64,000 nucleotides of DNA from Gammaproteobacteria bacterium (GTDB lineage Bacteria > Pseudomonadota > Gammaproteobacteria > Ga0077536), in NCBI GenBank assembly GCA_009692265.1, contig SHZM01000013.1, positions 1-64,000 of the forward strand. The letters are read 5' to 3'. A model generated the notes under the pieces. It was not told the DNA's origin, searched no databases, and worked only from the letters and a program-made list of their open reading frames with translations. The position numbers and the translations under genes were made by a program. Positions 7,710 to 57,010 of the stretch are shown piece after piece (the first letter of the stretch is position 1; every line of letters starts with the position of its first letter).

Positions 7710-9008
7710 TTAATCCGCGAACTCGATCTCGCGCGCCGGATGCACACCGAGCCACAGCAGCGCACCGAGCAGGCTCAATCCGCTCATGACATACAGCGCG
7801 CTGCTCCACCCATAGTGCTGCGCGAGATACGGCGTGAGCGAGGGCGAGACAGTACCCGCCAGATTGCCGCCCATGTTCATGACCCCGGCGGCGGTTCCGG
7901 CATAGCGCGACGCTAAATCGATAGTCGTTGCCCAGCATGCCGCGATCCCGAGCATCATCGTCCCGGTACTCGCCGACAAAAACACCACCGCCAGGATCGC
8001 GTTGTCGGTCGCCGCACCGAAAAAAACGAACACGGAAGTCAGCAGCATCGAGATGCAGCCGACACCGCTGCGGCCCCAGCGCTTGCCGTAACGTTTACCG
8101 ACGGCGTCGCTCAGCCAGCCGCCAAGCGGACTCGCGATGGCCATCGTGAGGAACGGTGCCATCGTATAGAAGCCGCCGCTTTCGAGCGAAAAACCGAGTT
8201 CGTTGACGAGATAGAGATAGAACCACGCGAAATAGAAATAGAGGTTGTAACCTAGTACACAATAGGCACCGGTTAGAAACCACAGGTCAGCACTGCCGAA
8301 TAAACGCCGCCACTGTACGTTGTCGGTGGACGCTGGATTTCTCAGCGTACCACCTGCAGCTTGAATGAGCGCTAGTTCCGCGGCGTTGATGCCGGCGTGT
8401 TTGGCCGGGGTGTCGGTGGTCAACCAGTACCACAGGCAGGCCACAACGATGCCTGCGGCTCCAGCCACATAAAAAGCTTCCCGCCAACCCCATTGGATCA
8501 TGATCCAGACGATCAGCGGAGGCGTCAGGGCGGCACCGATCGAACTGCCACTAAGCACGGCGCCGGCGGCGGTCCCGCGTTCCGCCGGCCCCACCCAGTT
8601 CGCGACCATGCGATTGCCATTCGGCGGCGCTGCAGCCTCGCCCAACCCGATGAGCGCGCGCACCAGTGCGAACGAGCCGACCACTCCGAGTGTTGAAGCC
8701 AGCGCCAACTCGCCCGCTAGCGCGGTAAGCGCGGTGAATGCCGACCACCACAGAATGGCCCAAGTCATCACGCGGCGCGGACCGTATCGATCGCCAAGCC
8801 ACCCACCTGGGATCTGGGCAAGCGCGTAGGTCAGGACGAACGCGCTGAAAATCATGCCGAACTCGACTTGGCTCAGCCCGTACTCTGGGATGATGTATTT
8901 CCCCGCTATCGAAATGTTGATGCGATCGACGATCATCAACACATAGACCAGGAAGATCAGCGCGATGATGCGCCAACGGACGTGGGTCGGTTGCTCAGTC
9001 GCGCTCAT
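7710..9008 (-). CDS. MFS transporter, anion:cation symporter-like
   Basis: 432 aa from ATG 9008 (a TTG two codons upstream is less likely). About 12 hydrophobic segments are visible, with the MFS loop 2-3 motif GGWLGDRYGPRRVMTW and a second-half counterpart GGWLSDAVGKRYGKRW. The opening VDRINISIAGKYI is typical of the anion:cation symporter (ACS) family, which moves organic acids such as hexuronates, galactonate or phthalate. It is an inner-membrane importer, probably supplying a carboxylic acid to the flanking LLM and enoyl-CoA hydratase genes on the same strand. The ligand cannot be predicted. Confidence 0.88.
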   Translation of the reverse strand: MSATEQPTHVRWRIIALIFLVYVLMIVDRINISIAGKYIIPEYGLSQVEFGMIFSAFVLTYALAQIPGGWLGDRYGPRRVMTWAILWWSAFTALTALAGELALASTLGVVGSFALVRALIGLGEAAAPPNGNRMVANWVGPAERGTAAGAVLSGSSIGAALTPPLIVWIMIQWGWREAFYVAGAAGIVVACLWYWLTTDTPAKHAGINAAELALIQAAGGTLRNPASTDNVQWRRLFGSADLWFLTGAYCVLGYNLYFYFAWFYLYLVNELGFSLESGGFYTMAPFLTMAIASPLGGWLSDAVGKRYGKRWGRSGVGCISMLLTSVFVFFGAATDNAILAVVFLSASTGTMMLGIAACWATTIDLASRYAGTAAGVMNMGGNLAGTVSPSLTPYLAQHYGWSSALYVMSGLSLLGALLWLGVHPAREIEFAD

Positions 9009-9046
9009 CGTCAAGGCCCGCTGGAAAACTATCGTACGAGACTACG

Positions 9047-9847
9047 CTAAATATCGCCGAAATCACCATGCCGACCCTTACCGCTGCTGAAACGCGAAGC
9101 ACCGGCAAGCCCTTCGCTCGCGACCATGCCTGCACTGTTTCGCCACTCCGCACGCAAGGCTTCATGGAGCGGTAAACCGTGCTGCAAATACACCGCCCGA
9201 CGATCCGCGCGCACGCAGCCCTGAGGATAACGGGCGATCTCGGCCGCCAGGGCTTCGGCGGCCTGGCGTGACTGACCGTCGGGAACGACTTTCTCGCAGG
9301 CACCAATGCGCAGGCATTCGTCGGCCGGTACCTTGCGCCCGGTCATGATGATCTCTAACGCGCGCCCCTCCCCTACTAGTCGCGGTAGGCGCACCGTACC
9401 GCCGTCGATCAGAGGTACACCCCAGCGGCGGCAATAGACTCCGAAGTACGCGCTTTGTTCCATCACCCGCAAGTCGCACCACAACGCGAGTTCGAAGCCA
9501 CCGGCGACCGCCGGACCCGCCACGGCCGCAATCACAGGTTTCGATAATTGCATCCGACTCGGGCCCATGGGACCACGCGGTACCGTACTTCCATCGGTTG
9601 GGAAATCAAATCTGCCGAGCAGGTTCGAAGCACCAACGAGCGTACTGGCAAACTTGAGATCCCAGCCCGCACAAAAGGCGCCACCCTCGCCCCAAAATAC
9701 CGCTACCGAAGCGTCGGGGTCGGCGTCAAAATTCGCAAAGGCCGCGACCAGTGCCTCGGCGCTTGCCGGGTCCATTGCATTGCGGGCTTCTGGGCGATGG
9801 TGGATAACGGTGGTGACCGCACCGTTCTTTTCAACTCTTACGGTCAT
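9047..9847 (-). CDS. Enoyl-CoA hydratase/isomerase (crotonase) family
   Basis: 266 aa from ATG 9847, which has GAGGGA eight bases upstream. The frame extends further but without crotonase similarity. The core shows HHRPEARNAMDPASAEAL, the oxyanion segment FCAGWDLK and AGPAVAGGFELALWCDLRV, which carries a catalytic-position Glu. It hydrates or isomerises enoyl-CoA thioesters in beta-oxidation or a related catabolic branch. It is upstream of the MFS gene by 38 nt on the same strand, suggesting one transcription unit of hydratase, transporter and LLM. The acyl substrate is unknown. Confidence 0.9.
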   Translation of the reverse strand: MTVRVEKNGAVTTVIHHRPEARNAMDPASAEALVAAFANFDADPDASVAVFWGEGGAFCAGWDLKFASTLVGASNLLGRFDFPTDGSTVPRGPMGPSRMQLSKPVIAAVAGPAVAGGFELALWCDLRVMEQSAYFGVYCRRWGVPLIDGGTVRLPRLVGEGRALEIIMTGRKVPADECLRIGACEKVVPDGQSRQAAEALAAEIARYPQGCVRADRRAVYLQHGLPLHEALRAEWRNSAGMVASEGLAGASRFSSGKGRHGDFGDI

Positions 9848-10088
9848 GGCGTGTTCCCTCTTCATATTTGCTGAAACTACATGACTGTAGGTCGCGCTGG
9901 CAAAGGGCGCGTCGGTATAGGCAGCGATGGGCGCACCGCACAGGACCGACGCAGGTTTCTGTTGATCGATGCCTGTCCCCGCGTTGCTTTCGGCTCCTGT
10001 GTTGGTAGGAAGCACAAGGGCCCGGGCAAGCCGATTGCCCGCTGTAGCCGCGCGCTATCGCATTCAAGTTCCCCTCGAACTCCGCTGC

Positions 10089-10122
10089 AAAACAGAAAGG
10101 CCGCGAGAGCGGCCTTTCTGTT
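10089..10122 (-). terminator. Rho-independent terminator after the PEP-CTERM remnant
   Basis: A perfect 14-bp stem, AACAGAAAGGCCGC, with a 4-nt loop and a short U tract on the minus-strand transcript. It starts 22 nt after the PEP-CTERM stop codon, the position expected for that gene's terminator. Confidence 0.75.
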
Positions 10123-10143
10123 GCGCGGACAAAGGGCTGAAGT

Positions 10144-10221
10144 TCAGCTGCGGAGGCGGAGGCGGCGGCCGAGACCTAGAAGTCCAATGCTAAGCAGTGC
10201 CAAGGTTCCAGGTTCCGGCAC
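10144..10221 (-). pseudogene. PEP-CTERM sorting signal without a body: 25-codon remnant or minimal ORF
   Basis: From a GTG at 10221 the frame reads VPEPGTLALLSIGLLGLG, then RRLRLRS and a stop. That is a complete PEP-CTERM tripartite signal (PEP motif, hydrophobic helix, Arg-rich tail) recognised by exosortase/EpsH systems. Upstream in frame there is no signal peptide or mature domain within the roughly 240 nt before the amidase gene. Unusually, a near-perfect AAAGGAGG lies nine bases before the GTG, and an overlapping out-of-frame ATG is also at a good spacing. A strong terminator follows. The most likely reading is the 3' end of a deleted PEP-CTERM gene; a genuinely tiny gene is less likely. 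It implies the host has, or had, an exosortase. Confidence 0.6.
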
Positions 10222-10460
10222 ATTTATTGGCCTCCTTTCCAGAAACCGGAAATGTCCCGGTGACTGCGACACTTCGATCGAGTCCCGGCGCCGCGATTGG
10301 TTTCATCGAAGCACGCAATAAGGCTGAATGAGGTGGGTAGTCAACAGCATAACCTCGTTTCTTCGCACCAAACCTCGCAGCCCGAGCGCAGAAATCCAGC
10401 TGTTTAAACTGTAAAAAATCTTGACTGAGGCTGTCGAGGCCTAGGCGAGAACAGTTGAGC

Positions 10461-11867
10461 TCACAGCGGGGGTCGCCGCTTATGCCAATCCGTCGCGCGC
10501 TCGTAGGCCGCTGCCGCTCGAATGATCGTCGCCTCATCGCCATGCCGTCCGATGAACTGCATCGCCGTGGGTAGACCCTCGACATTGAAACCGTTTGGCA
10601 GAGTAATCGACGGATGGCCGCTCAGGTTGGTCGGACCGGTGTAACGCACGAGGGCGGGCATCGCTTCCGGCGGCACCACGCCCTGTGGATGAAACTGCTC
10701 CTGCGGCATCGCAGGGGACGCCGTCGCGGGGCAGAGAATGCAGTCCACTTCGGCAAGCGCCTTGTCGAACGTTGCGATCGTTGCCTGACGCAGCCGCTGA
10801 CCGCGCGCGTAATCCTCAGCCGTCGCCACTGCGCCGTAGTCGAGCATCGCGCGAAACACCGGCCCGTACTCCGCCGCGCGTGCGGGATAGAACGCGCGAT
10901 GCCGCAGCAACGCATCTACGGCGCAGATCGTGTACCAGTAGGCGAGACCATCGAGAATTCCGGTTAGATCGATCTCGTGGATCTCCAGGCCCTGACTTTT
11001 CAGCATGAAGCACGCGCGGAAAGTCGCATCCGCCTGCGCCGGATCGGTGTCGGCCGTGCAATAGGCGCGATCAATGCCGACTTTCAAACCACGTGCTCCA
11101 CGCGCAATCTCGCTCACATAGTCGACAGTGGGATCGCTGCGCGTCGACGGGTCGCGTTCGTCCCGGCCTTGCAAGACCTGCAGCATCAATGCCGCATCGG
11201 TGACACTGCGAGTCATCGGGCCGATGTGGTCGAGTGTGTCGGCGAGGGGGAAAACGCCGTGGCGTGACACCTTGCCGAAGGTCGGCTTGATGCCGACGAT
11301 GCCGCACATCGAAGACGGAAAGCGGATCGACCCGCCGGTATCCGTGCCAATTGCGCCGAAGCAGAGCGAAGCCGCCGTGGCAGCACCAGAACCGCTGGAG
11401 GACACCCCGGCCGAATAGCCGAGATTCCACGGATTGTGTGGCAGCGGCATATCAGGGTGATAACCGTACAGCGCGAACTCGGTGAGATTCAGTTTGCCGA
11501 TGCAGATAGCGCCCGCAGTCGTCAACTTCTCGATGATCGTCGCATCAAAGTCGGGGCGATCGTCGCGCAGCATCGGTGACGCGCAGGTTCGCGGCAACCC
11601 TTTCATCGCGACCAGATCCTTGATGCCAAGCGGGATCCCGTGCAGCTTGCCGCGATAGCGACCGGCTGCGATTTCGCGGTCCGCGGCGCGTGCCTGTTCG
11701 CGTGCGAGATCCGCAGTCACCAGCAGAAAGCTTTGCAGCTTGTCGTCGAGCGCCGCGATCCGCGCGAGTTGGGCGTCGACGAGATCGACCGCAGTGAGTT
11801 CTCCGCGTTCAATCAGCGGCGCGATGTCGCTGATGGTGCGCTTAAGCAGTTCGGGGTCACAGGTCAT
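10461..11867 (-). CDS. Amidase (amidase signature family)
   Basis: 468 aa. The signature region includes SSGSGAATAASLCFGAIGTD followed by TGGSIRFPSSMCGIVGIKP, and GIKDLVAMKG lies upstream. The Ser-cisSer-Lys triad is therefore complete (Lys in GIKD, cis-Ser in SSGSG, nucleophile Ser in TGGSIR). Relatives include amidases, 6-aminohexanoate-type hydrolases and GatA. The absence of gatB/gatC nearby favours a catabolic amidase acting on an organic amide. It is cytoplasmic with no signal peptide. It lies about 120 nt downstream of the mxaL-like gene on the same strand but is probably a separate unit. Confidence 0.9.
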   Translation of the reverse strand: MTCDPELLKRTISDIAPLIERGELTAVDLVDAQLARIAALDDKLQSFLLVTADLAREQARAADREIAAGRYRGKLHGIPLGIKDLVAMKGLPRTCASPMLRDDRPDFDATIIEKLTTAGAICIGKLNLTEFALYGYHPDMPLPHNPWNLGYSAGVSSSGSGAATAASLCFGAIGTDTGGSIRFPSSMCGIVGIKPTFGKVSRHGVFPLADTLDHIGPMTRSVTDAALMLQVLQGRDERDPSTRSDPTVDYVSEIARGARGLKVGIDRAYCTADTDPAQADATFRACFMLKSQGLEIHEIDLTGILDGLAYWYTICAVDALLRHRAFYPARAAEYGPVFRAMLDYGAVATAEDYARGQRLRQATIATFDKALAEVDCILCPATASPAMPQEQFHPQGVVPPEAMPALVRYTGPTNLSGHPSITLPNGFNVEGLPTAMQFIGRHGDEATIIRAAAAYERATDWHKRRPPL

Positions 11868-18212: not shown

Positions 18213-18334
18213 CAGGCAGGACGAAGCAATCCGAAAGCGCGTTCCGGCTAAACCTAAATGCGGCCTTGTCGGGGCTACCCGGTTACCATGGGCATGTTTC
18301 ACCCCTCGCTTCGAAAGCGCCTTTGGAGATTCTC

Positions 18335-19969
18335 ATGTTCGACGATTCGATAACACCCTCGTCCGCGGTCGCGCGCTACGACGCGATTCTCATTGGTACC
18401 GGCGTTAACGGCATGTTTCAGCTGATTCGATTGCGGGAGCTCGGGCTCTCGGTGCGGGCTTTCGAGGCGGCGGGCGATGTGGGCGGGACTTGGTATTGGA
18501 ACCGATACCCAGGGTGTCGCTTTGATTCCGAGAGTTACACCTATATTCACTCGTTCTCCCAGGAGCTGCTCAACGAATGGGATTGGTCCGAACATTTTTC
18601 GGCACAGCCCGATACCTTGCGTTACTGCAATTACGTCGCCGATAAATTTGATCTGCGCAAAGACATTCAATTCAACGCGCGCGTGACTTCGGCGGTGTTT
18701 AATGAAGCCCACAATGAATGGGAGATCACACTCGCCGACGGCAGCCGTGCGCGTAGCCGCTATTTCGTCACGGCGCTCGGCCCGCTCTCGACACCCGTAA
18801 TACCGAGTTTCGAAGGGATTGATAGCTTCAAGGGCGAGTCCCATCACACCGGACTATGGCCGCACACACCCGTCGATTTCGCGGGTAGGCGGGTCGCCGT
18901 GATCGGGACCGGCGCTTCCGGCGTGCAGTTGATCCAAACCATTGCCAAGACCGTCGACCATCTGACGGTATTCCAGCGCCGCCCCAACTGGTGCTCGCCT
19001 TTGAATAACGCGCCCATCGACGCCGAAGAAATGAACCGTATCCGCGCTCGGTATACGGAGATCTTTGCCAAGTGCCGCGATTCCGAGGGCGGATTCATAC
19101 ACGTGGTCGATCCGCGTAAAGCTGGAGAGGTCAGCGCACAAGAGCGAGAAGAAGTGTTCGAGCGCCTCTACCAAACACCCGGCTTCGCGATTTGGTTGGC
19201 GAATTTCTACGATACCTTCACCGATCAAACCGCCAATGATTTCATTACCGAATTCGTTGCGCGCAAGATCCGTGGGCGGGTTAACGATCCGGCAATCGCC
19301 GAGCGGCTAATCCCCAAGGATCATGGTTTCGGCACCCGCCGCGTGCCAATGGAGAGCGGGTATTACGAAGTCTACAATCAGAACAATGTCGAATTGGTCT
19401 CCACGCTAGAGACTCCGATCGAGCGCATCACGCCGACCGGCCTGCGGGTCGGTGGCAAGGACTACGCATTCGACATCATCATCTATGCCACGGGCTTCGA
19501 TGCGATGCTCGGCGCCTATAACCAAATCGATATCCGCGGGTGCGGCGGGCAAAGCCTGAAAGAAAAGTGGGCGGAGGTTCCGCGTACTTTTCTCGGCGTT
19601 CAGGTCGCAGGTTTTCCGAACATGATGATGGTGATCGGCCCACATACCGGCGCCTCTTTCTGCAACATGCCACGCTGCGGTGAAGAGAACGTGGATTTTG
19701 TTACGGATCTGATCCGTTTCACGCAGACGAAGGGCTTCTCCCGCGTGCAGCCATCAGTTGAGTCGGAGATCGCGTGGACCGAGCACGTGCATCAAGTCGC
19801 GGAGAAATTGCTTATCAACAAGACCGACTCCTGGTTCACCGGCATCAATCGCAATATCGAGGGTCGACAAACTCGCCGGGTATTGCTCTATGCCGGCGGC
19901 GCGACGCGTTACCGTCGCAAATGCGACGAGCAAGTCGCCAGTGGGTATGCGGGGTTCGAATTCAGGTAA
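18335..19969 (+). CDS. Baeyer-Villiger-type flavin monooxygenase
   Basis: 544 aa from ATG 18335, with GGAG ten bases upstream; in-frame starts further upstream lack support. Two Rossmann motifs are present, GTGVNG near residue 21 (FAD) and VIGTGASGVQ (NADPH). Between them lies FKGESHHTGLWP, an exact match to the Baeyer-Villiger fingerprint F-x-G-x3-H-T-x2-W. The C-terminal ATGFDAMLGAYNQID is the family's second conserved site. It converts ketones to esters or lactones with O2 and NADPH. It is convergent with a second such gene, the two separated by palindromic element B. Confidence 0.93.
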   Translation: MFDDSITPSSAVARYDAILIGTGVNGMFQLIRLRELGLSVRAFEAAGDVGGTWYWNRYPGCRFDSESYTYIHSFSQELLNEWDWSEHFSAQPDTLRYCNYVADKFDLRKDIQFNARVTSAVFNEAHNEWEITLADGSRARSRYFVTALGPLSTPVIPSFEGIDSFKGESHHTGLWPHTPVDFAGRRVAVIGTGASGVQLIQTIAKTVDHLTVFQRRPNWCSPLNNAPIDAEEMNRIRARYTEIFAKCRDSEGGFIHVVDPRKAGEVSAQEREEVFERLYQTPGFAIWLANFYDTFTDQTANDFITEFVARKIRGRVNDPAIAERLIPKDHGFGTRRVPMESGYYEVYNQNNVELVSTLETPIERITPTGLRVGGKDYAFDIIIYATGFDAMLGAYNQIDIRGCGGQSLKEKWAEVPRTFLGVQVAGFPNMMMVIGPHTGASFCNMPRCGEENVDFVTDLIRFTQTKGFSRVQPSVESEIAWTEHVHQVAEKLLINKTDSWFTGINRNIEGRQTRRVLLYAGGATRYRRKCDEQVASGYAGFEFR

Positions 19970-19988
19970 AAGCAATTTCAAGGGGTCA

Positions 19989-20076
19989 ATTTCAGGGGTC
20001 AGAGTTGCTGAAAAAAAGGAAATCGTGCGAAGCGCGACCCTGGAGTTATTTTTCAGCAACTCTGACCCCCTGAAAT
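19989..20076. repeat. Palindromic element B between convergent monooxygenase genes
   Basis: An 88-nt element with 27-bp terminal inverted repeats. The left arm contains GGGGTCAGAGTTGCTGAAAA and the right arm is its complement with one extra G/C. The interior contains a smaller dyad around CGTGCGAAGCGCG. A partial direct copy, ATTTCAAGGGGTCA, immediately precedes it. It could terminate transcription from both sides. GGGGTCAGAGT-type ends resemble RAYT/Y1-associated repeats; that is inference. Confidence 0.8.
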
Positions 20077-20111
20077 CGCAACCGCGCGCAGCAGGTATCA
20101 GCAACGCGGCC

Positions 20112-21773
20112 TCAGGCCGTCGCCGCGCGCCGTTCGGGCTCGGTGACAAACCCCTCATAGCCATTGTCCGCAGACTCGCGAATTCGCGCGAAATACGCGG
20201 GTCCGCCTAGGTGTACGGCGAACTGGCGATGTTTGCCTGCGATGTTGCTGCCCGTGTACCACGACTCGGTCTGCGGATAGAGAGACTGGTTGGCGATCTC
20301 CTCCACTTCCTTCGCCCACACTAGATCCGCGCCCGGTGCCGGCTCGATGGCGCCGATGCCGTGCTTGCGCATATGCAGAATGCATTCGCGGATCCAGTCG
20401 CTCTGCCGCTCGGCGCCCAGTGGCATGTTGTACAGCACGCAGGGCGACTCGGGGCCGTGGATCATAAAGAGGTTCGGCATGCCCGGAATGGTGAGCCCGA
20501 GCCACGAATTGAAGCGTTCCTTCCAGCGCGTGCTGAGCGGCACGCCGCCACGGCCACGCGGGTTGATGTTCTGCAGCGCGCCGGTTATGGCGTCGAAGCC
20601 GGTGGCGAAGATCAGCATGTCGAGCGAATGATGGCCGCTCTCAGTGCGCACACCATCGGCGGCGATTTCGATGATCGGATCTTCGCGCAGATCGACCAGA
20701 TTCACGTTCTCGCGGTTGAAGGTTTCGTAATAGCCCTCGTCCATCACCTGGCGCTTGGTCGCGATGAGATAGCTGGGCAACAGTTTGCGTGCGGTCTCTG
20801 GATTCTTCACGACGGCGCGAATTTTCTCGCGCACGAATCCCGCCAGCCAGTCGTTCGACTGCCGGTCGGTCAGGATGTCGCAATAAGTCGAGACCAGGAT
20901 CGGGCCGAGACCTCCGATGCGCCAAGCGGCTTCGTAAGTTTCGCGCCGCTGTTCGGGCGTATGGTCGCAGGCGCGGATGGTGGTCGGCATGTCCGGCGCG
21001 CCGATCGGAGTAGTCAACATGATATTGCGGAATTTTGACCAGTCTTTGCGCGCCTCGGCGACCAGCACTTGGTCGGTCGGAGTGTTGCCGGCGGGCACCG
21101 AGTACTGCGGTGTACGCTGGAAGACGGTGAGGTGGCTCGCTTCGCGCGCCACCATCGGTGTCGACTGAATGCCGGACGAGCCCGTGCCGATGATGCCGAC
21201 GCGTTTGCCCTTGAACACCACCTGCCGGTCGTTCGGCCACCGGCCGGTGTGGTAGCACTCGCCTTTGAAACTGGCCACGCCCGGGATGTCCGGCACGTGA
21301 GCCGCCGACAGGGCACCGACCGCGCACACCAGGAATTGGGCGCGCACGCGAGTGCCCTTGCTGGTCTCGATCTCCCAGCGTTGTACACCTTCTTCGAAGG
21401 CCGCGCCGGTGACGCGCGTCGCGAGTTCAATGTCGCGACGCAGGTCGAGGCGATCGGCCACGAAGTTCAGATAGCGCAACACAGTCGGCTGGTCGGGCTG
21501 CTTCTCCGGCCAGTCGAACTCGCGAATTAAATCCTCGGAAAAGGTGTAGCAGTAGAACGGCCCGCCGGGATAGTCGACCCGCGCGCCCGGATAACGATTC
21601 CAATACCAAGTGCCGCCGACGCCGGTGGCCTCGTCAAACAGCCGCACCTTGAGTCCCTGTTCACGCAAGGTATGCAGTGCATACATACCGCCGAAACCGG
21701 CACCGATGACGACGGCATCGTACTCCGGCACGTCGATTGCGGCAGTCTTGAGTTGTATGGCAGTAGCGGACAT
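20112..21773 (-). CDS. Baeyer-Villiger-type flavin monooxygenase (cyclohexanone monooxygenase-like)
   Basis: 553 aa from ATG 21773, preceded by GGGGAGA. An upstream in-frame start would add 27 residues without homology. VIGAGFGGMYALHTL is the FAD-binding motif, FKGECYHTGRWP the Baeyer-Villiger fingerprint, and GIIGTGSSGIQ the NADPH motif. The sequence VGGTWYWNRYPGARVDYPGG is typical of cyclohexanone and cyclododecanone monooxygenases. The product would be an ester or lactone. It is transcribed toward the other monooxygenase gene. The two share architecture but differ in many positions, so they are not a recent duplication. Confidence 0.93.
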   Translation of the reverse strand: MSATAIQLKTAAIDVPEYDAVVIGAGFGGMYALHTLREQGLKVRLFDEATGVGGTWYWNRYPGARVDYPGGPFYCYTFSEDLIREFDWPEKQPDQPTVLRYLNFVADRLDLRRDIELATRVTGAAFEEGVQRWEIETSKGTRVRAQFLVCAVGALSAAHVPDIPGVASFKGECYHTGRWPNDRQVVFKGKRVGIIGTGSSGIQSTPMVAREASHLTVFQRTPQYSVPAGNTPTDQVLVAEARKDWSKFRNIMLTTPIGAPDMPTTIRACDHTPEQRRETYEAAWRIGGLGPILVSTYCDILTDRQSNDWLAGFVREKIRAVVKNPETARKLLPSYLIATKRQVMDEGYYETFNRENVNLVDLREDPIIEIAADGVRTESGHHSLDMLIFATGFDAITGALQNINPRGRGGVPLSTRWKERFNSWLGLTIPGMPNLFMIHGPESPCVLYNMPLGAERQSDWIRECILHMRKHGIGAIEPAPGADLVWAKEVEEIANQSLYPQTESWYTGSNIAGKHRQFAVHLGGPAYFARIRESADNGYEGFVTEPERRAATA

Positions 21774-22061
21774 GGCAAATCTCCCCGTACGGCGGCCCAA
21801 TTGGTTGCGCTTGAGTATAGAGAGCAAGGCCGACGCGGGCAATCCGGGGCGCACGTAGTGCGCCCCGGAGAGGTGGATTCGCCGCTACAGGCATGAGGGT
21901 GTCCCAAATGTTTTACTGGATATCGGCGCAATTGTGGAGGATCGGGATGGCAACGACTTGATGCATGTCCCGGGATCCTCTCCCAAGGGACCGATAGGCC
22001 CGAACCGCTACGTTGAGGAGAAGTAGCCACGCATTACGTGGACCATCGGGCTCGTTCCCAA
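21774..22061. other. Intergenic stretch between the monooxygenase and the decayed oxidase genes
   Basis: No supported gene. On the minus strand, immediately after the subunit III-like gene, a frame starts MIGNEPDGPRNAWLLLLNVA. It could be the very start of a lost subunit IV-like gene, which often follows, but the evidence is too thin to call. The 21774-21900 part should hold the monooxygenase promoter. Confidence 0.3.
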
Positions 22062-43164: not shown

Positions 43165-44208
43165 CTAATAACCTAAATCGCGTGCTGCGCGTTCGAGGAC
43201 AACCGGTACCGACCACGCCGTGCGCGCGAGCCGAATGTCGTTGCTGCGCCCGGCGGCGTACAACCCGGAAGCACTCATCCAAAACGCAACCGAGCGCATT
43301 GCATAGAGCGCGTTGTAGTAGCGGCAGGCCGCTTCGTCGATCACGAAACCGGTGGCGGCTTCATAGTCACGGAAAAATGCCTCGCGTTCGACGAGGTTCG
43401 AAAGCAGCGGCGTACCTTCCCGATTGAGATCGCTCAACACGTACGCGACGTCATACATCGGATCGCCCAATACCTGCAGCTCCCAGTCGAGCACAGCCGA
43501 GATCTGATCGTCATGGATCAGAAAATTGCCGGTACGGTAGGCACCGTGGACAAGGGTGACCCGATCCGTCGCCGGAATATTATCTTCGAGCCAGCAAATC
43601 AGATCGGTCAGGATGGGTTCCGGTGAATGCTCGGACAGCGCGATTAATTCGCGCCATTTCGAGATTTCGCGGCGCGCGAAGTCGGTTCCGGCAGCCGGCA
43701 CACCGAGGAAATCGAGGCCGGCCGCGCGCCAATCCAAGGTGTGCATCGTCGCCAAGGTGGTCGTGAAACTTTTCGGTAAGGCACCGCGCTCGGCGGCGGC
43801 TTGGTAGTACGCGCGGCCATCCCGCCCCCAGGGATTCGGGCAGCTGCCGCGAACTTTCTCCATCACCAGAAAGGGCGCATCCAAAATCGCGGTATCGCGC
43901 TCAAACCAATACGGCTTCGGTGTTGGCAACGCCGTGTGCTCAAGGCACTGGAGTACACAAAACTGCTGCTCAAGATCCGACAGATGACGCAGCAAGGCGT
44001 TGCCTGGGTCGCGACGCAAGCAAAGCCCAAGATGCCGCGCCTCCCCCGCCGTACGATAGTCAAGATCAAATAACCAGGTTTCATGCGACCAGCCGACCGC
44101 GATCCGCTGCACATTCTGTAAGGTGAGGTCAGTCGCGTCCGGCAGGCGACTGCGCAGATACTCGATAATTCTCCCTTGCAGGATCGTCGAGTCGTCACGA
44201 TCACTCAC
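43165..44208 (-). CDS. APH-fold phosphotransferase, LvaA/ACAD10-11-like hydroxyacyl-CoA kinase, lacking the catalytic Asp
   Basis: 347 aa from GTG 44208, overlapping the DUF6285 stop by 4 nt. The family segment reads LVHGAYRTGNFLIH where kinases have HGDxxxxN. The catalytic-base Asp is Ala223 (codon GCC at 43540-43542, one base from GAC). The DWE metal motif (AVLDWELQVLGDP) is intact. Active relatives phosphorylate 4-hydroxyacyl-CoA before dehydration, as LvaA does for levulinate. Here the kinase step is probably lost or altered. It is the last gene of the monooxygenase/lactonase/ligase unit. Confidence 0.8.
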   Translation of the reverse strand: MSDRDDSTILQGRIIEYLRSRLPDATDLTLQNVQRIAVGWSHETWLFDLDYRTAGEARHLGLCLRRDPGNALLRHLSDLEQQFCVLQCLEHTALPTPKPYWFERDTAILDAPFLVMEKVRGSCPNPWGRDGRAYYQAAAERGALPKSFTTTLATMHTLDWRAAGLDFLGVPAAGTDFARREISKWRELIALSEHSPEPILTDLICWLEDNIPATDRVTLVHGAYRTGNFLIHDDQISAVLDWELQVLGDPMYDVAYVLSDLNREGTPLLSNLVEREAFFRDYEAATGFVIDEAACRYYNALYAMRSVAFWMSASGLYAAGRSNDIRLARTAWSVPVVLERAARDLGY

Positions 44209-44618
44209 GCCGCATACTCCACTTGGCGATCGATGTTCGCGCGCAGGGTTTGGCGCACTCGAGCAAGTAACACTGTGAAGTGTTCAGCGCCCAGCGCGTT
44301 GCGACTAGAATAGAGTGCCTCGATTAGCCCACACACTGCCGCTTTATTTCGATCGCGGGTTAATCTCTCAAGCGAAGTTTGCATTTCCGCCGGGAGTGGC
44401 AAGTCGCGCGCTGTATGGTTCAAATCCGCGAGTAAGGCGTCTAGATCGGCGCGCTCCGCGGCTTGGTGTCGCGCCGCGACGCCGAGTTGTCGGCTGAGCT
44501 TCTGTAATACTACGCCGGCCATGAAGGCTTGGGTCTTCGGATACTCAGCGTCGATGGCGGGGCCGATCTCCTGTTTCAACGTTTGCGCGATTCGTTGCAA
44601 CAATTCATCTTCGGTCAT
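44205..44618 (-). CDS. DUF6285-like small partner of the hydroxyacyl-CoA kinase
   Basis: 137 aa, helical, no signal peptide. The conserved opening LLQRIAQTLKQEIGPAIDAE, followed by YPKTQAFMAGVVLQKLSRQL, matches small proteins encoded beside, or fused to, ACAD10/11-type phosphotransferases (DUF6285). In Pseudomonas putida LvaB, a similarly placed small protein, is needed for LvaA kinase activity. Equivalence to LvaB is inference from position and size. It overlaps the kinase gene by 4 nt. Confidence 0.65.
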   Translation of the reverse strand: MTEDELLQRIAQTLKQEIGPAIDAEYPKTQAFMAGVVLQKLSRQLGVAARHQAAERADLDALLADLNHTARDLPLPAEMQTSLERLTRDRNKAAVCGLIEALYSSRNALGAEHFTVLLARVRQTLRANIDRQVEYAA

Positions 44619-44636
44619 CGTTATGCTTCTCTCTAG

Positions 44637-46295
44637 TCAGGTCGCGTGTGGCTTCAAGCTTTTAGCCCACTCGCGCAGTTTGAATTTCTGAATCTTGCCA
44701 CTTGGGGTACGCGGGAATTCGTCGAGCACCTCGAGGCGTTCGGGGAGATATTGTTTGATGAGCTTGGCATCGAGCAAGTAGTCGACCATGGTCTGGAAAG
44801 CAAAGATGCCGCCAGCGCGCAACGTAACGAAGGCGCAGCCACGTTCTCCTAGGCGATCGTCAGGCATTGCGACGATTGCCGCGTCGGCGATCGCGGGATG
44901 ACGATAGAGCAGCTCCTCCACTTCGACGATTGGAATATTCTCGCCGCCGCGAATGATCAGATCCTTCGAGCGCCCGGTGATCCGAATGTAACCCTCGGCG
45001 TCCATGCGGGCGTTGTCACCGGTTTCCAGCCATTGCTCGGCATCGAGCCCGTACGCGTCTGGACGCTTAAGGTAACCCACGAACGTCGTCGCGCACCGCG
45101 ACTGAAGCCGACCCTCAACACCGGGCGGTACCGGCACACCATGCTCGTCGACCACCCGAACTGCTTGATGCGGCAGCGCGCGTCCATCGGTGTCGATAAT
45201 CTTCTCCGGTGGATCGCCGGGATACGTCGCGGTGACAATGCCGATCTCGGTCATCCCCCATGCACTCATGACGTGCAGGTTCGGATAGGTCGCGTGGGCT
45301 TCATGGACCAGCACGCGCGGGATTGGCGCGCCGGCGCACAGGAACAAACGAAGGCACGAGAAATCGTGCTTGCGTGCGGACGGTAGCTGCACGAGATCAC
45401 GCAGAAACGGCGTTGAACCAAGAGTAATCGTGCAGCGCTCGTCCGCGATCAGCCGTGCGGCCGTCGCGGGCTCCCAGATATCCTGCAATACGCATTTGCA
45501 GCGGTGGTAAAGCGCCAAAATCACCGCATACATGAAGCCGGTTTGATGCGCGAGCGGCGAGCCCATGTAGATCTGATCATCGGCATTGAAGCTGAACAGT
45601 TCACTGGCGAGCAACGCTTTGCAGAGCAAGGTGTTCGCGGTGTGCATCACACCCTTCGGTTCACCCGTGGTTCCCGAGGTATACATGATTTCGGTCACGT
45701 CATTCGGGTCTGGACGGCGGGCGCGAAATGCGGCCACGTGATTAACGTGAGTTTCCCACATTGGATCTAACAAGCGTGCTTCGAACGCACTCTTCGGATC
45801 ATCGCCGCCGATCACGAACACGTGTTTGAGACTCGGCAGTTCATGCTGTAACTGACTCGCCATCCGAGGGTAATCGAAGCCGCGAAATTCGCGCGGCACA
45901 ATGAGCACCCGTGCTTCGGTCAGTCCGAGCATGAAACTTAGCTCGCGCTCGCGGAAGATCGGCATCAACGGATTGATCACCGCGCCAATCCGCACACACG
46001 CCGTATACACCGCGGCGTAATGCCACCAGTTCGGCAGTTGCACAGCGATCACGTCACCCGGCTTGATCCCGAGTTCGATGAACGCGCAGGCAATACGGAT
46101 CGAGGTGTTCTGCAGTTCGCGATAGCTGAGACGAGTGGAGATCCCGGTCATGCTGTTGTGATCGACCACGGCCGTTACCGCAGGTGCTACCACGGCTGCT
46201 TCGTCCAACAAATCCGACACCAAACGATTCGGCCACAGGCCGCGGGTGGTGAGATCGGCAATCCTCGCAGCAGACAGGATGGGGGAGAAGTTCAT
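44637..46295 (-). CDS. AMP-dependent acyl-CoA synthetase
   Basis: 552 aa. IMYTSGTTGEPKGVMHTAN is the AMP/ATP signature (A3). WLETGDNARMDAEGYIRITG and SKDLIIRGGENIPIVEVEE are A7/A8, and RTPSGKIQKFKLREW carries the catalytic Lys (A10). It is closest in style to cyclohexanecarboxylate- and medium-chain-CoA ligases. In this operon it would activate the hydroxy acid released from the lactone by the SMP-30 protein. It lies 19 nt before the DUF6285 gene. Confidence 0.92.
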   Translation of the reverse strand: MNFSPILSAARIADLTTRGLWPNRLVSDLLDEAAVVAPAVTAVVDHNSMTGISTRLSYRELQNTSIRIACAFIELGIKPGDVIAVQLPNWWHYAAVYTACVRIGAVINPLMPIFRERELSFMLGLTEARVLIVPREFRGFDYPRMASQLQHELPSLKHVFVIGGDDPKSAFEARLLDPMWETHVNHVAAFRARRPDPNDVTEIMYTSGTTGEPKGVMHTANTLLCKALLASELFSFNADDQIYMGSPLAHQTGFMYAVILALYHRCKCVLQDIWEPATAARLIADERCTITLGSTPFLRDLVQLPSARKHDFSCLRLFLCAGAPIPRVLVHEAHATYPNLHVMSAWGMTEIGIVTATYPGDPPEKIIDTDGRALPHQAVRVVDEHGVPVPPGVEGRLQSRCATTFVGYLKRPDAYGLDAEQWLETGDNARMDAEGYIRITGRSKDLIIRGGENIPIVEVEELLYRHPAIADAAIVAMPDDRLGERGCAFVTLRAGGIFAFQTMVDYLLDAKLIKQYLPERLEVLDEFPRTPSGKIQKFKLREWAKSLKPHAT

Positions 46296-46376
46296 CGGCG
46301 AAGAATCGACCGCATTTTGCTGGTCCAGTGTTTAGCCATTGTTGTAACTTTCAGAGCACGGTCCTTACTCGTCGGA

Positions 46377-47321
46377 TCATCGCCCCTTCGAAGCTTCCCG
46401 CTGCCGCCGCGCCCAGCGGTGTATCGGCCACATGTCCTGGTCTTCGCCCCATGCGACCACACCACCGATATCCCAGCGAATGAGGCTGTTGATATCGATG
46501 AAGGTATGTCGGTTCAGAATAATTTTGCTCACTGGAACGCCCACTGCGTGAAGCTCACGACCCGCGGAATCGCGCGCCGTTAATTCGATCCGCGTAATCC
46601 AGCCGTGAACAGGGTCGCGTTCGACTCGGCGTTCACCACTGACCAAACTGATGGTCTTGCCGTCGCGTCGTAAGAACCCATAGGAGATAAAATCACCTTC
46701 GGGCCGCACGTTCGTCACGGCCAGGAAGCCGTTCGCGGCGTCGGCGGCGCCGGTCACATAGGCCGCTTGGCGGGGCCGATCTTCCGGTCGGAGACCCCAG
46801 GTGCGATCGCGCATGCCGATGCAATCGATGGCGATCTTCTCGCCGTGCAGGATTAGTTCACCCGTGACCCGACCGAACTGATCGAAATGATGCGCACTGC
46901 CGAAAGTCGACTCCACCGCAGTCAGCGATTCCGGCGGCATAACGCCTTCGAACGTTAATGTAGCCTTTAGTCGCTCGCCATCCTCAAAACCGAGCGCATA
47001 GCGCATACAGGGTTCGAGCACTCGGATAGACACCCCGGTCGGCAGACGGCAATCGGCAAGATCAAGGTCACGCGGTAATTGCTGCGCCGTGTAGTTCGCC
47101 GAGTAGAGCGCCTCCCACGGCAGATGCGCCTTGTCGTCCCACACCCAGGCTCCACCGGAAACTGTCCCGATGTTCGGTCGCACCAGGGTATAAAACCAGC
47201 CACCGAGTCGGCGCTCCGGGTGATGGAACGAAAACCACGACGTCTCCGTGGCCCACCAATCCTTGTCCATTACGTCGAAATGGCAGTGATCGTCGTTAGC
47301 GGTGAATTTTCGCTCGCTCAT
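46377..47321 (-). CDS. CrtC/hydroxyneurosporene-synthase-like (DUF7064/7065-type) protein
   Basis: 314 aa. VMDKDWWATETSWFSFHHPE opens a lipocalin-like two-barrel protein. GEKIAIDCIGMRDRTWGLRP and GFISYGFLRR-type strands (IDCxGxRDxxWGxR) are the diagnostic segment. These proteins occur widely in catabolic gene clusters of actinobacteria and proteobacteria; some are hydratases of terpenes or carotenoids (CrtC), others are uncharacterised. It lies between the lactonase and ligase genes, so it may act on the same cyclic, isoprenoid-like substrate. The reaction is unknown. Confidence 0.7.
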   Translation of the reverse strand: MSERKFTANDDHCHFDVMDKDWWATETSWFSFHHPERRLGGWFYTLVRPNIGTVSGGAWVWDDKAHLPWEALYSANYTAQQLPRDLDLADCRLPTGVSIRVLEPCMRYALGFEDGERLKATLTFEGVMPPESLTAVESTFGSAHHFDQFGRVTGELILHGEKIAIDCIGMRDRTWGLRPEDRPRQAAYVTGAADAANGFLAVTNVRPEGDFISYGFLRRDGKTISLVSGERRVERDPVHGWITRIELTARDSAGRELHAVGVPVSKIILNRHTFIDINSLIRWDIGGVVAWGEDQDMWPIHRWARRQREASKGR

Positions 47322-47337
47322 AATAGACCTGCGAAGA

Positions 47338-48279
47338 TCAGCGTTGGTGGGTTAAGGGCATGCCCGGGACCGGGCTGCGCGCGTGGAGAACATAATTACT
47401 GGTAACGCTGCCGACGTAGACATCGCGCAAATCGCTGCCCCCGAAGCTCACGTTGGTGGGATTTCGCATCAGGCTCCCCGCGGGATCGGACAACACTGTC
47501 ACGACTTCTCCGTTCGGGGTAATGGCAACGATCTTATTCGCCATCACCAGGGTCACCCACAGATTGCCGTCTTGATCAAAGGCACAACCATCGGTCGCGC
47601 CAAGCTGGCTGCGCAGATCGAGCGACAGCGGCCTACGGTCTTGCACCTCAAGGTTACTTAAGCCCAGTGACGGGCCGTAACGAGTAGGCGTGCCTAGCGA
47701 GCCGTCGGCGGCGATCGGGTACCTAATCACGTCGCAACCAGCCGTTTCGCACACAAAAAGATTTCTTTCGTCGAAATCCATCGCCAGACCATTCGCGAAT
47801 TTGATCCCTTCGGCTAGCACGGTGACGGTGCTGTCTGGGTCAACGCGAAACACCAAACCGTCGTGCTGCCCCTGATAGGCGGCGTCGAGCGGTCCCCAGG
47901 TTGAATGCGAACACCAGATCCGACCACGGGTATCGATCAACGGATAGTTAGCGCCCCACATTTTTCGCCCTTGCAGCTCATCGCACAGAAGTTCGACGTT
48001 GCCCGTGGTGGGGTCCAGTCGTTGCAACGGGCCGTAACCGTCTTCAGGACCACCAAAATTCGCGATGAGGAGTCGGCCTGCGAGATCTAAAGTAATCCCG
48101 TTGGGGGCACCTGCGACCTTGCCGACATGGACGAGGCCATCAGGCTCGATCCGCGCGCAGGCACTGGCCTGGTCGGAGGCCCAGATCGCCCCGTCGCGAC
48201 TGATCACCACATCTTCCGGGCGTTTTAGGCCAACCCCGATTTTTCGGCACGCGGCTAAATCAATTGCTGGCGAACTCAT
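47338..48279 (-). CDS. SMP-30/gluconolactonase family lactonase
   Basis: 313 aa, six-bladed beta propeller. The metal-binding Glu is in GLKRPEDVVISRDG, the Asn in VAGAPNGITLDLAGRLLI, and a further Asn/Asp pair in EGIKFANGLAMDFDERNLF. These are the family's Ca/Zn ligands. It hydrolyses lactones. It lies directly after a Baeyer-Villiger monooxygenase gene on the same strand (17 nt), which strongly suggests opening of that enzyme's lactone product. No signal peptide. Confidence 0.88.
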   Translation of the reverse strand: MSSPAIDLAACRKIGVGLKRPEDVVISRDGAIWASDQASACARIEPDGLVHVGKVAGAPNGITLDLAGRLLIANFGGPEDGYGPLQRLDPTTGNVELLCDELQGRKMWGANYPLIDTRGRIWCSHSTWGPLDAAYQGQHDGLVFRVDPDSTVTVLAEGIKFANGLAMDFDERNLFVCETAGCDVIRYPIAADGSLGTPTRYGPSLGLSNLEVQDRRPLSLDLRSQLGATDGCAFDQDGNLWVTLVMANKIVAITPNGEVVTVLSDPAGSLMRNPTNVSFGGSDLRDVYVGSVTSNYVLHARSPVPGMPLTHQR

Positions 48280-48296
48280 AAAATAAGACTCGATGT

Positions 48297-49760
48297 CTAA
48301 TGAATTAGGTCATATTCCTCAAAGCGCGGCCGCGACATGTCATCGCGAAAGCGCTCAAAGGTAAAGGGCCACATTTCGGGGCTACCGGTTTTATCGAGAT
48401 ACCAACTTTTGCAGCCCGTGGCCCACACGGTATTGCCCATGGCACCGCGCAGCTCGGAAAGGAACGCATTAGTCGCCTCAAAGGTCGGTGCAATCGCGCG
48501 ACAATCGCCACGCTGCAGGGGTGCCAGCAGCTGCTGGAGATAGTTTAGCTGCAGCTCGGAAATCAGGATTACCGAGAAATTGCCGATCGGGCTATACGGA
48601 CCAACGAGCATGAAGAAGTTTGGAAATCCAGGTACCGACATTGAGCGATGAGTCAGATTGCTCTGCGCCCAGGTGTCATCCAGACGTTTCCCTTCAACGC
48701 CGAGCACCTGCATGGGTCGCATAAAGGCGTGGCCGTTAAAACCAGTCGCGTACACCAGCACATCGAGTTCGTGCAAATTGCCTTCGCGATCGCGCACGCC
48801 ATGCGGCTCAATCCGTTCGATACCGCTCGTCACCAGTTCGGCATTCGGTCGCTGGATCGCCGGATAAAAAATGTCGGACATGATGAGACGCTTGCACCCG
48901 ACCTTGTAGTCAGGGGTCAACTTCGCGCGGAGGACGGGATCATGGACATTATGTTCCAAGTTCTCGCGACATCCCGCTTCGAGCCGACTCATTTCCAGCG
49001 CATCACCGACCACCGCGCGTGAGATCGTGTTCTGGAAACGCTCGAGCCAAGTCGCGTAGAGCTTGGTCATTGAGTCCGGTTCCGCCCGGAACTGGGCTTT
49101 TTCTTCTTCGGTATAGGCGACGTTCGGCAACGGCAACACCCACTGCGCCGTGCGTTGGAACATGGTGACCTTGGCCGCGGTGTCGACAATCGCCGGTACG
49201 ATCTGCATCGCGGTCGAGCCCGTGCCGATAATGCCGACTCGGCGACCCGCGAGCATTACGGATTCGTCCCAGCGTGCGCTGTGGAACGCGTCGCCAGTGA
49301 ACTTATCGCGCCCTGGAATGTTCGGCAACACCGGGTGATGTAGAAAGCCGGTCGCGCAGAGCACGATATCGACCGTCTCCTCGTGCCCTCTTGCGGTTTT
49401 AATTCGCCATTCCCCGCCGCCATACACGGCACTGACGACTTCTTCGTTGAAACGAATCCTCGAATCTATTTCGTGCGTTACGGCGACCTGCTCGAAATAG
49501 GCGAGGATCTCTGGCCCCGGAGAGAAGCGCTGTGACCATTCGGGATTCGGCGCGAAGGAATAGCAGTAGTGGTGCGACGGTACATCGCAAGCGATGCCGG
49601 GGTAGCGATTTTCGCGCCAAGTCCCACCCGCCCGCGCGGCCTTTTCGTAGATGGTAAAAGCGATGCCGGCTTCGCGTAGCTTGATACCGGCGAGGATGCC
49701 GGACATACCCGCGCCAATGATTGCAGCGCGCAAGGGTCGTTTAGCCAACGTCGACGCCAT
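48297..49760 (-). CDS. Flavin-containing/Baeyer-Villiger-type monooxygenase
   Basis: 487 aa, slightly shorter than the two at 18-22 kb. FAD motif IIGAGMSGILAGIKLREA, NADPH motif GIIGTGSTAMQIVPA. The fingerprint reads FTGDAFHSARWD, i.e. F-x-G-x3-H-S-x2-W, with Ser where the classic motif has Thr. The C-terminal ATGFNGHAFMRPMQV is conserved. It starts a tight six-gene minus-strand unit and faces the AraC regulator. The product is probably an ester or lactone that the next gene (SMP-30) hydrolyses. Confidence 0.92.
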   Translation of the reverse strand: MASTLAKRPLRAAIIGAGMSGILAGIKLREAGIAFTIYEKAARAGGTWRENRYPGIACDVPSHHYCYSFAPNPEWSQRFSPGPEILAYFEQVAVTHEIDSRIRFNEEVVSAVYGGGEWRIKTARGHEETVDIVLCATGFLHHPVLPNIPGRDKFTGDAFHSARWDESVMLAGRRVGIIGTGSTAMQIVPAIVDTAAKVTMFQRTAQWVLPLPNVAYTEEEKAQFRAEPDSMTKLYATWLERFQNTISRAVVGDALEMSRLEAGCRENLEHNVHDPVLRAKLTPDYKVGCKRLIMSDIFYPAIQRPNAELVTSGIERIEPHGVRDREGNLHELDVLVYATGFNGHAFMRPMQVLGVEGKRLDDTWAQSNLTHRSMSVPGFPNFFMLVGPYSPIGNFSVILISELQLNYLQQLLAPLQRGDCRAIAPTFEATNAFLSELRGAMGNTVWATGCKSWYLDKTGSPEMWPFTFERFRDDMSRPRFEEYDLIH

Positions 49761-49901: not shown

Positions 49902-50966
49902 ATGTCCCGATCGCAGAAGCTGAAGGTTCCTCCTTCCAGCAAACTCCCCGAATTCTTATTCGGCCGGGAGATGTCGACACCCGTGCGTTTGGCCTATGGA
50001 CTGGCGCCGATGATCCAGTTCTTAGAGAACACCGGGCACGCCGTTGAGCCGCTCTTAGCCGCGACCGAGATCCCGCGGTTTGCACTCGAAGAGCCGAGTT
50101 ATCGCATTTCATTAGAGCAGAAACTGAAATTCACTCGTCTGGTCTTGGCGCGGGTGAAGAGCGCGAGCGCGGCGCTCGAAATCGGTCGGCGATTCCATTT
50201 ATCGATGTTCAGCGTGCTCGGCTTGACCGCGTCGTGCGCGCCGACCATCCGCGACTCCTTGCAGCTCTTGCTGACCTACCCCGAACTCGCGTGGGGACTC
50301 ATTGAACTCGTGGTCTGGCGCGAAGGGGAGCACAAATACATCGCCTTTGAGCCAGGTCCAGTCGTCCGCGAACTAGGACCGTTTTTCGTCGAGCGCGATT
50401 CGATCGCGATTCTGAATCTGTTCCGAAATCTAGTCGGCACGCACTTAGTCGCCCATGCCGTAGCGTTCCGCCACCGAGCGCCTAAAGACAGCAGGCTTTA
50501 TGACGCATTTTTTGGCTGTCCGGTCGAGTTTGGAGCAAAGATCAACGAGATGTCGTTCGAAAGTCGCGTGTGGGACACCCCGCCCCTGCAAGCTAACGCG
50601 ATGTCGCGACGGTTTTTTGAAAATCAATGCCGCCGGCTGAGTGAGATGATGCAGGAGCCGTTTAAGTTTTCAGACATCGTCCGCAGCCGCCTGCGCTCGG
50701 CCACACCGATCCCTGCCTTACCGATGCTGGCGCGTGCGCTGCACATGACCGCGCGCACCCTACAACGTCGACTCGCGCTGGAGACAACCGATTTCTCCTC
50801 AGTCTTGCGCGAAGTTCGGATCCAACGCGCTACCGAGCTGATGCACCGTAGCCATCTGCATTTAGAGGAAGTCGCGTACCGCCTTGGCTTCCACGATCCG
50901 GACGCGTTCTCACGCGCATTCCGCACGTGGACCGGTTTGTCACCGACGGAGTTTCGGCGGCGCTGA
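49902..50966 (+). CDS. AraC family transcriptional regulator
   Basis: 354 aa. The N-terminal Arabinose_bd/OruR-like domain is about 30-220. The C-terminal double helix-turn-helix has MLARALHMTARTLQRRLALE in the first helix-turn-helix, and VAYRLGFHDPDAFSRAFRTW followed by TGLSPTEFRR in the second, the AraC signature. It is divergent from the monooxygenase-lactonase operon and probably activates it in response to a ketone, lactone or acid. ATG at 49902. Confidence 0.92.
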   Translation: MSRSQKLKVPPSSKLPEFLFGREMSTPVRLAYGLAPMIQFLENTGHAVEPLLAATEIPRFALEEPSYRISLEQKLKFTRLVLARVKSASAALEIGRRFHLSMFSVLGLTASCAPTIRDSLQLLLTYPELAWGLIELVVWREGEHKYIAFEPGPVVRELGPFFVERDSIAILNLFRNLVGTHLVAHAVAFRHRAPKDSRLYDAFFGCPVEFGAKINEMSFESRVWDTPPLQANAMSRRFFENQCRRLSEMMQEPFKFSDIVRSRLRSATPIPALPMLARALHMTARTLQRRLALETTDFSSVLREVRIQRATELMHRSHLHLEEVAYRLGFHDPDAFSRAFRTWTGLSPTEFRRR

Positions 50967-55651: not shown

Positions 55652-57010
55652 ATGTCAGCTGCGCCTATCTTGATTGTGCATGGCGGTAAGGTGCTCGACG
55701 GCCTGGGCGCACCAGCGCTGGCGGCCGATGTGGTGATCACCGGCGATCGGATTACCGAGGTGCGAGCTGGCGCTGCAGACCAGTACGATGCCGCGATCCG
55801 CCGCATCGATGCCACGGGACTGACTGTCATGCCAGGCCTTATCGATGCGCACTGCCACATCAGCTTCGATGAGCCGAACTCCAACGACGAGTTGTTCTTT
55901 CATCGCCGCGAAGGGCTTGCCGCGATCATCGCGGCGGTGAACGTGCAGAAGGTGCTCGCCGCCGGGGTTACCGGTTTCTTCGATGCGGATTGTCTGTTTG
56001 AGATCGGAGTCGATCTGCGCGACGCCATCGAAGCCGGGATCGTACGTGGTCCGCGCATGAGCACTGGCGGCAACGCGCTGCTCACGTCGGTCGGTGGCAC
56101 CGCGGGGCGACTTATCCCGGACGAGGGTCGCCGCGGCTACGGCAAGGTCGTCAACTCGCGCGACGAAATCGTCCAGGAGATCCGACGCCAGATCAAACTC
56201 GGGGTCGATTGGATCAAGGTTCACGTTACTGGCCTCACCCTGCGTCAACGCGGCAAGGGCGAGGTTCAGGTCTGGAGTTACGACGAACTGCGCTAGGTGG
56301 TCGATACCGCGCACGAACTCGGAACGCCGGTCGTAGGCCATTGCCGCGGCGCGAGCAGTACGCGTGATGCCGCGCTCGCCGGCTTCGACATGATCTTGCA
56401 TGCGACGTACATGGACGAGGCGGCACTTGCAGCGGTGATCGAACGAAAAGTGCCAATTGTTCCGACTTTCACCTTCCAGGCGAATCTCGCCGATTACGGC
56501 GAGACAATCGGCGCCTCACCCGAACTCCGCGCGTTGTTTCAAAAAGAAATCGCCGAGAGCGCGGTGATGCTACGCCGTGCCTACGACGCGGGTGTGCCGT
56601 TGTTGTGCGGCACTGAAAGCGGCTTTTGTTTGACCCCGTATGGTGATTGGCATTACCGCGAGCTCGAAGTTTTCGTACGCGATCTCGGCATGACGCCACT
56701 GCAGGCGATCACCTGCGCAACCAGCGAGAACGCCTTTGCGCTTCGCCTGCATGGTGACACCGGGACCATACAGGCGGGCAAGCTTGCTGATCTGATCGTG
56801 GTCGCTGGCGAGGTTGAACGCGACGTGACCGTGCTCGGCGAGCGCGGCGATATCCGACATGTGGTACGGGGTGGTGAAGTGATTCCGCCGCTCATCGAGA
56901 CCATACGCCGGGATCCACCTGGCTGGCGTGTTTCACATTACGGAAAGCAGATCTTGAAGCGCGCGATGCTCGGCAATGAATTGTCTCCGCCAAGCGTCAT
57001 TCATTCTTAA
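55652..57010 (+). pseudogene. Metal-dependent amidohydrolase with an in-frame TAG
   Basis: 453 codons. VHGGKVLDGLGAPALAADVV is the urease-like sandwich domain, and PGLIDAHCHISFDEPN carries the HxH site. After SYDELR a TAG (56294-56296, codon 215) interrupts. The frame continues VVDTAHELGTPVVGHCRGAS, with a further metal His, and ends with the expected C-terminal sandwich. Without read-through only half of the TIM barrel is made. A downstream start at 56297 is itself a GTG, but the half protein would lack the N-terminal metal ligands. It abuts the P450 stop. Confidence 0.8.

Follow-up and report, generated by a model that had tools for sequence, protein, structure and literature searches.

Can one operon open a cyclic ketone and also dispose of the hydroxyl group that ring opening leaves behind? 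The question is raised by six genes on the minus strand at positions 43165–49760 of the window, i.e. the whole stretch of 64,000 nucleotides analyzed, which is almost the entire contig C24 of a 3.4-Mb draft genome from a gammaproteobacterium. The known fates of a hydroxyl left by lactone hydrolysis are oxidation of the alcohol, or phosphorylation followed by elimination. The initial annotation had read the six genes as a Baeyer-Villiger monooxygenase (BVMO), an SMP-30 lactonase, a CrtC-like protein, a CoA ligase, and an LvaA/LvaB-like phosphorylation pair, with an AraC regulator opposite, and all of these genes are present (Table 1). The open reading frames are spaced by 17, 16, 81, and 18 bp plus one 4-bp overlap, and the AraC gene is divergent from the operon across a gap of 141 bp. 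Pfam searches of the operon gave FMO-like (E-value = 2.6e-20), SGL/SMP-30 (1e-29), DUF7065 (4.5e-9), AMP-binding (2e-78), and APH (1e-28), and the regulator displays the domains given in Table 1. A promoter/terminator scan showed no excess above shuffled sequences, and no match to the regulator adjoins any of the 80 related loci described below. Elsewhere in the window, at 55652–57010, a single amidohydrolase gene is interrupted by an in-frame TAG at 56294–56296.

Table 1. Positions and motifs of the operon genes and the divergent regulator.
Feature	Position in window	Strand	Motifs, residues, or domains
Type I Baeyer-Villiger monooxygenase (487 aa)	48297..49760	-	GAGMSG, GGTWRENRYPGIACD (45-59), FTGDAFHSARWD (154-165), GTGSTA, GCKR (288-291)
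SMP-30/gluconolactonase-type beta-propeller, putative lactonase	47338..48279	-	predicted metal ligands E22, N111, N163, D230
DUF7065/Rv3169-family protein, candidate phosphate (leaving-group)-eliminating lyase	46377..47321	-	RDRxWGxRP at 171-179
Acyl-CoA ligase	44637..46295	-	YTSGTTGEPKG at 205, GKIQK at 533
LvaB-like small all-helical protein (137 aa)	44205..44618	-	Q30, H51, R126 invariant in 44 relatives
LvaA-like APH-fold protein	43165..44208	-	HGAYRTGN (221-228), N228 and D241 kept
AraC-family regulator, divergent	49902..50966	+	Arabinose_bd and HTH_18

An ortholog of the SMP-30 gene is found in 15 of the 35 other genomes of the same order that were searched, with 61–71% identity. Twelve of the 15 carry SMP30-DUF7065-ligase-LvaB-LvaA in identical order, a count that includes two loci with a broken ligase gene, one cut by a contig end at LvaA, and one at SMP30. 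Of the remaining three loci, two are truncated by contig ends, and the other (L048) is without the last three genes. The fragmented ligase genes (L042 4440–5047 and L043 12189–12482) belong to two members of a single genus, and the unit is otherwise intact. Because the gene order recurs in other genomes of the same order, it is not a product of chance. Searching 84,980 genomes with an alignment of DUF7065 sequences yielded 80 loci distributed over Gamma- and Alphaproteobacteria, Binatota, and Acidimicrobiia, with several Klebsiella-labelled records among them taken as mislabelled metagenome-assembled genomes. A kinase-like gene is situated less than 5 kb from DUF7065 in 75 of these.

The genes predicted to act in ring opening and CoA activation all display intact motifs. 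The BVMO shows FxGxxxHxxxW[P/D], [A/G]GxWxxxx[F/Y]P[G/M]xxxD, and two Rossmann motifs, as in type I enzymes, and its nearest solved relative is the steroid monooxygenase 4ap3 (245 bits). The SMP-30 protein has the SGL domain with the Glu, Asn, and Asp metal ligands of the SMP-30/gluconolactonase family; the four predicted ligands align with ligand positions of the lactonase 8djf/7ris and are unchanged in 14 orthologs, in keeping with the annotation as a putative lactonase. The ligase, likewise as annotated, keeps its two motifs, and the nearest curated family is cyclohexanecarboxylate-CoA ligase, with a score of 651.8 bits that falls under the 792 cut-off.

Among the same-order genomes compared, the window BVMO heads the unit in the source genome only, and its nearest homologs in relatives (58–61% identity) are situated away from the DUF7065, LvaB-like, and LvaA-like genes. 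At the head of the operon it is a local recruit. A different BVMO, related to that at 18266–19969 of the window, adjoins the LvaA-like gene in L037, L039, L040, L042, L043, and L046; in Binatota a BVMO is found upstream of DUF7065, in Vineibacter one adjoins DUF7065, and L084 carries homologs with 56% and 32% identity to the window BVMO. The 54 loci having both DUF7065 and LvaB contain 18 open reading frames with both BVMO fingerprints versus approximately 4.8 expected, the expectation being based on how densely FMO-like genes occur across the genomes of 15 members of the order only and the 54 loci being related, so that the probability is merely indicative. Together with the intact fingerprints, this enrichment agrees with the initial annotation of a Baeyer-Villiger type enzyme. 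A both-fingerprint BVMO is absent from the stretch read in 39 of the 54 loci. In the window itself, 18266–21854 contains two more BVMO genes, convergent and with full fingerprints, and relatives of the first of these adjoin the three genes in other genomes.

The operon would not be a ketone pathway if the BVMO-family enzyme were a lineage-specific passenger and the three genes served some other hydroxyacyl-CoA. Such a role would account for the restriction of the window BVMO to the operon of the source genome and for the many loci without any BVMO, but it fits poorly with a 17-bp spacing inside one transcription unit and with the different BVMOs found beside these genes in gammaproteobacteria, Binatota, Vineibacter, and L084; we regard it as rather unlikely. 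A ring-opening role for the BVMO is the reading followed here.

The LvaA-like protein departs from what the initial annotation proposed. The sequence has homology to the APH fold and aligns with ACAD11 (E-value = 1e-26), 3dxp, Rv3168 (3ats), and 9fsg. However, it reads HGAYRTGN against the kinase HGDxxxxN, with Ala at the position of the catalytic Asp. HGA is present in all 54 readable relatives from the 80 named loci (Gamma- and Alphaproteobacteria, Binatota, and Acidimicrobiia), and these form with the window protein a single clade of 55 rows with 99/99 support, long branches outside it making the outgroup placement unsure. Five paralogs in the source genome retain HGD. An alignment slip was considered and rejected, as the Asn stands at exactly the right distance and both wild-type and mutant ACAD11 align there without any shift; a sequencing error was rejected as well, since 54 relatives concur. 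Two deposited ACAD11 sequences differ at this same position, with HGD in 8v3v and HGA in 8v3u. In ACAD10/11, Asp to Ala at the catalytic position eliminates kinase activity, and structures were made of the kinase-dead mutant (PMC12440821). At the sequence level, the replacement in the operon protein is the same change as the engineered kinase-dead mutation of ACAD11. Since the APH-fold protein does not carry the residue essential in ACAD10/11, phosphorylation may not occur in the operon at all, and with the Asp absent from every readable member of the clade, the proposal of a phosphorylation pair is unsupported.

Canonical LvaA/LvaB phosphorylation would need a kinase that is active despite the missing Asp and would leave DUF7065 with no special role. 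The family similarity to ACAD11 and 3dxp and the presence of an LvaB-like partner speak for it, as does Pseudomonas putida, where LvaB binds LvaA and both are required for growth on levulinate (PMC6692424). However, the identical change abolishes activity in ACAD10/11, HGD is kept in the five paralogs, and no gene for an LvaC-type acyl-CoA dehydrogenase is found in the operon, and this explanation is considered improbable.

An LvaB-like gene adjoins the HGA protein in 51 of 51 cases with sequence past the gene (three more at contig ends were not judgeable) versus 0 of 21 HGD proteins, a perfect coupling that counts as one evolutionary split and not as 72 independent ones. In Pfam the LvaB-like protein shows a marginal hit to DUF6285 only (best E-value = 0.017, 4 of 12 sequences); the Foldseek search with its model gave no significant match, and none was found in a plasmid search. 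The Mg/ATP residues N228 and D241 of the HGA protein, and many others, remain invariant. SelO demonstrates that a kinase fold without the Asp can catalyze AMP transfer instead (PMC12409994). By analogy, the pair in the operon may transfer AMP as SelO does, or the missing residue may come in trans from the LvaB-like partner, e.g. the invariant His51.

The protein annotated as CrtC-like had been left without a role. The CrtC-like label holds for the fold in the broad sense, but a narrower prediction, that of a lyase, can be made. An AlphaFold2 model of the DUF7065 protein built from 62 sequences has a pLDDT of 91, and Foldseek against the PDB gave 25-phosphosteroid lyase as the top match (E-value = 1.2e-13, probability 1.00, TM 0.66–0.70), with AttH, kievitone hydratase, and Diels-Alderases ranking below it. 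When PDB sequences were searched with a DUF7065 profile, the same lyase was the sole match (E-value = 0.006), with an alignment spanning RDRxWGxRP. The RDRxWG core is unchanged in the 62 sequences, and the Asp of RDRxWGxRP is Asn in the product-bound lyase entry 9g4c. Thus the protein shares both the fold and the RDRxWG motif of the 25-phosphosteroid lyase family, with a sequence identity of only ~14%. Removal of phosphate from a phosphorylated tertiary alcohol, in the two-step dehydration by 25-OH steroid kinase and lyase, is established (PMC8449060). On the structural and sequence matches, DUF7065 is the strongest candidate to catalyze elimination, by which a leaving group would be lost from an activated alcohol. 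A literature search for DUF7064 or DUF7065 by name found no paper.

Dehydration might also proceed free of ATP, with DUF7065 itself catalyzing hydration or dehydration directly, as kievitone hydratase or CrtC does, and the HGA protein as a true pseudokinase that, together with LvaB, serves DUF7065 as a scaffold or allosteric partner. Fixation of Asp to Ala in a 55-row clade (99/99) over several phyla is expected of a retained non-catalytic role, and one fold match, kievitone hydratase, acts on a tertiary alcohol (PMC5805349); against this, N228, D241, and many other residues are still invariant and the top fold match is a phospholyase, not a hydratase. We consider it rather unlikely. Elimination from an activated alcohol remains the favored role for DUF7065.

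In L149 of the source genome (G000:C98, 7204–10443), two tandem DUF7064/7065 genes precede a kinase that retains HGDFRNGN, after which come enoyl-CoA hydratase-like and acyl-CoA dehydrogenase-like genes. A second conserved context for DUF7065 is found in approximately 17 alphaproteobacterial loci (L096–L131), where it adjoins an HGDAGPGN kinase and, in most cases, genes for CaiB and hydantoinase A/B. DUF7065 beside an intact HGD kinase is the pairing that would be expected of a kinase-lyase tandem. On plasmids, L154 of Mycobacterium branderi (4723–9164) carries SMP-30, a phosphotransferase (QGDTGPGN), DUF7065, and a P450 in a single run, a second case in which SMP-30 and DUF7065 occur together. 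In L155 of Methylibium petroleiphilum PM1 (7013–10804), a DUF7064/7065 gene lies upstream of one for a protein with a PEP-utiliser domain, which may be a further set for phosphorylation and elimination. For the loci related to the operon, the missing kinase Asp, the coupling to LvaB, and the match of DUF7065 to 25-phosphosteroid lyase point to the triad of DUF7065, LvaB-like protein, and Asp-less kinase-like protein as the conserved unit.

As proposed, the BVMO would insert oxygen next to the carbonyl of a cyclic ketone, forming a lactone that the SMP-30 protein would hydrolyze to a hydroxy acid, and the ligase would form the hydroxyacyl-CoA. The triad would then remove the hydroxyl, which would be unusable by beta-oxidation where it is located: the APH-fold protein and its LvaB-like partner would activate or present the hydroxyl without the usual kinase aspartate, and DUF7065 would eliminate the leaving group to form an alkene, in the manner of 25-phosphosteroid lyase. 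The operon contains no gene for an alcohol or aldehyde dehydrogenase, in agreement with dehydration of a secondary or tertiary alcohol and not with oxidation of a primary one. By gene content, the operon appears to hold the parts of the phosphorylation/elimination solution minus the kinase residue. That it is an aerobic catabolic operon opening a cyclic ketone and readying the product for beta-oxidation by way of the triad stands, in our estimation, at an even chance. The intact BVMO, SMP-30, and ligase motifs, the core kept across the order, the proximity of kinase-like and DUF7065 genes, the lyase fold match, and the BVMO enrichment in varied arrangements favor it, and there may be set against it the missing kinase residue, the low identity to the lyase, a fold shared with hydratases and Diels-Alderases, the triad loci without BVMO, and the BVMO homologs situated off the triad. 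ATP-dependent dehydration of an alcohol by an Asp-less APH-fold protein with an obligate LvaB-like partner, followed by DUF7065 elimination, in several phyla, is a more tentative proposal, possible but doubtful.

In Sterolibacterium denitrificans, 25-hydroxysteroid kinase and 25-phosphosteroid lyase (PMC8449060; PDB 9fzn, 9g2i, 9g4c) likewise combine an APH-fold protein with a lyase of the DUF7065 fold and RDRxWGxRP, and by analogy the triad would convert an alcohol to an alkene. The solved entry 9fsg, probably the S. denitrificans kinase, retains the Asp (wGDaRpGN) where the operon protein has Ala, and the operon adds the LvaB-like partner and the CoA ligase. In S. denitrificans no lyase candidate gene was found near the kinase gene (PMC8449060). 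The P. putida lva operon for levulinate and mammalian ACAD10/11 share with the operon a CoA ligase, an APH-fold LvaA-like protein, and a small LvaB-like partner, which in the operon would likewise act on hydroxyacyl-CoA, and LvaA-LvaC provides a two-step analog of phosphorylation and elimination (PMC11342911, PMC12440821). Unlike the lva operon, the catalytic Asp is missing here, DUF7065 replaces the LvaC-type acyl-CoA dehydrogenase, and the small partner is a putative LvaB homolog. Clusters of kinase and acyl-CoA dehydrogenase genes that are lva-like occur elsewhere in the source genome (L141, L142). In Mycobacterium tuberculosis, Rv3168-Rv3169 is described as one operon (PMC5340868) in which an APH-fold protein (3ats) adjoins the DUF7065/Rv3169 namesake, but Rv3168 retains the Asp (wGDaRvGN) and LvaB is not reported for the pair.

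The claim that no described pathway joins these steps is unsupported as worded, because monocyclic monoterpene catabolism in Rhodococcus erythropolis DCL14 includes a BVMO, the epsilon-lactone hydrolase MlhB, and CoA activation, taking ketone to lactone, hydroxy acid, and CoA ester (PMC4097962, PMC7794910). Unlike the proposed order in the operon, DCL14 oxidizes the hydroxyl before CoA activation (PMC4097962); its lactone hydrolase is not described as an SMP-30 protein, and the kinase-like/DUF7065 triad is not reported. A literature search for a BVMO/SMP-30 cluster found nothing matching, nor was a paper found joining BVMO, lactone hydrolase, and CoA activation to kinase/lyase dehydration. The new part, as proposed from the gene content, would be a variant of kinase-lyase dehydration joined to ring opening.

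The analysis exposes a conserved, apparently kinase-dead clade of APH-fold proteins in one-to-one association with a small partner, and DUF7065/Rv3169, an uncharacterized family, gains a testable function. If the proposal of ATP-dependent dehydration is true, it would provide a first function for gene pairs of the Rv3168-Rv3169 kind. Should the module act as a dehydratase on hydroxyacyl-CoAs from Baeyer-Villiger opening, it would explain how bacteria complete the breakdown of branched cyclic ketones that yield non-oxidizable alcohols.
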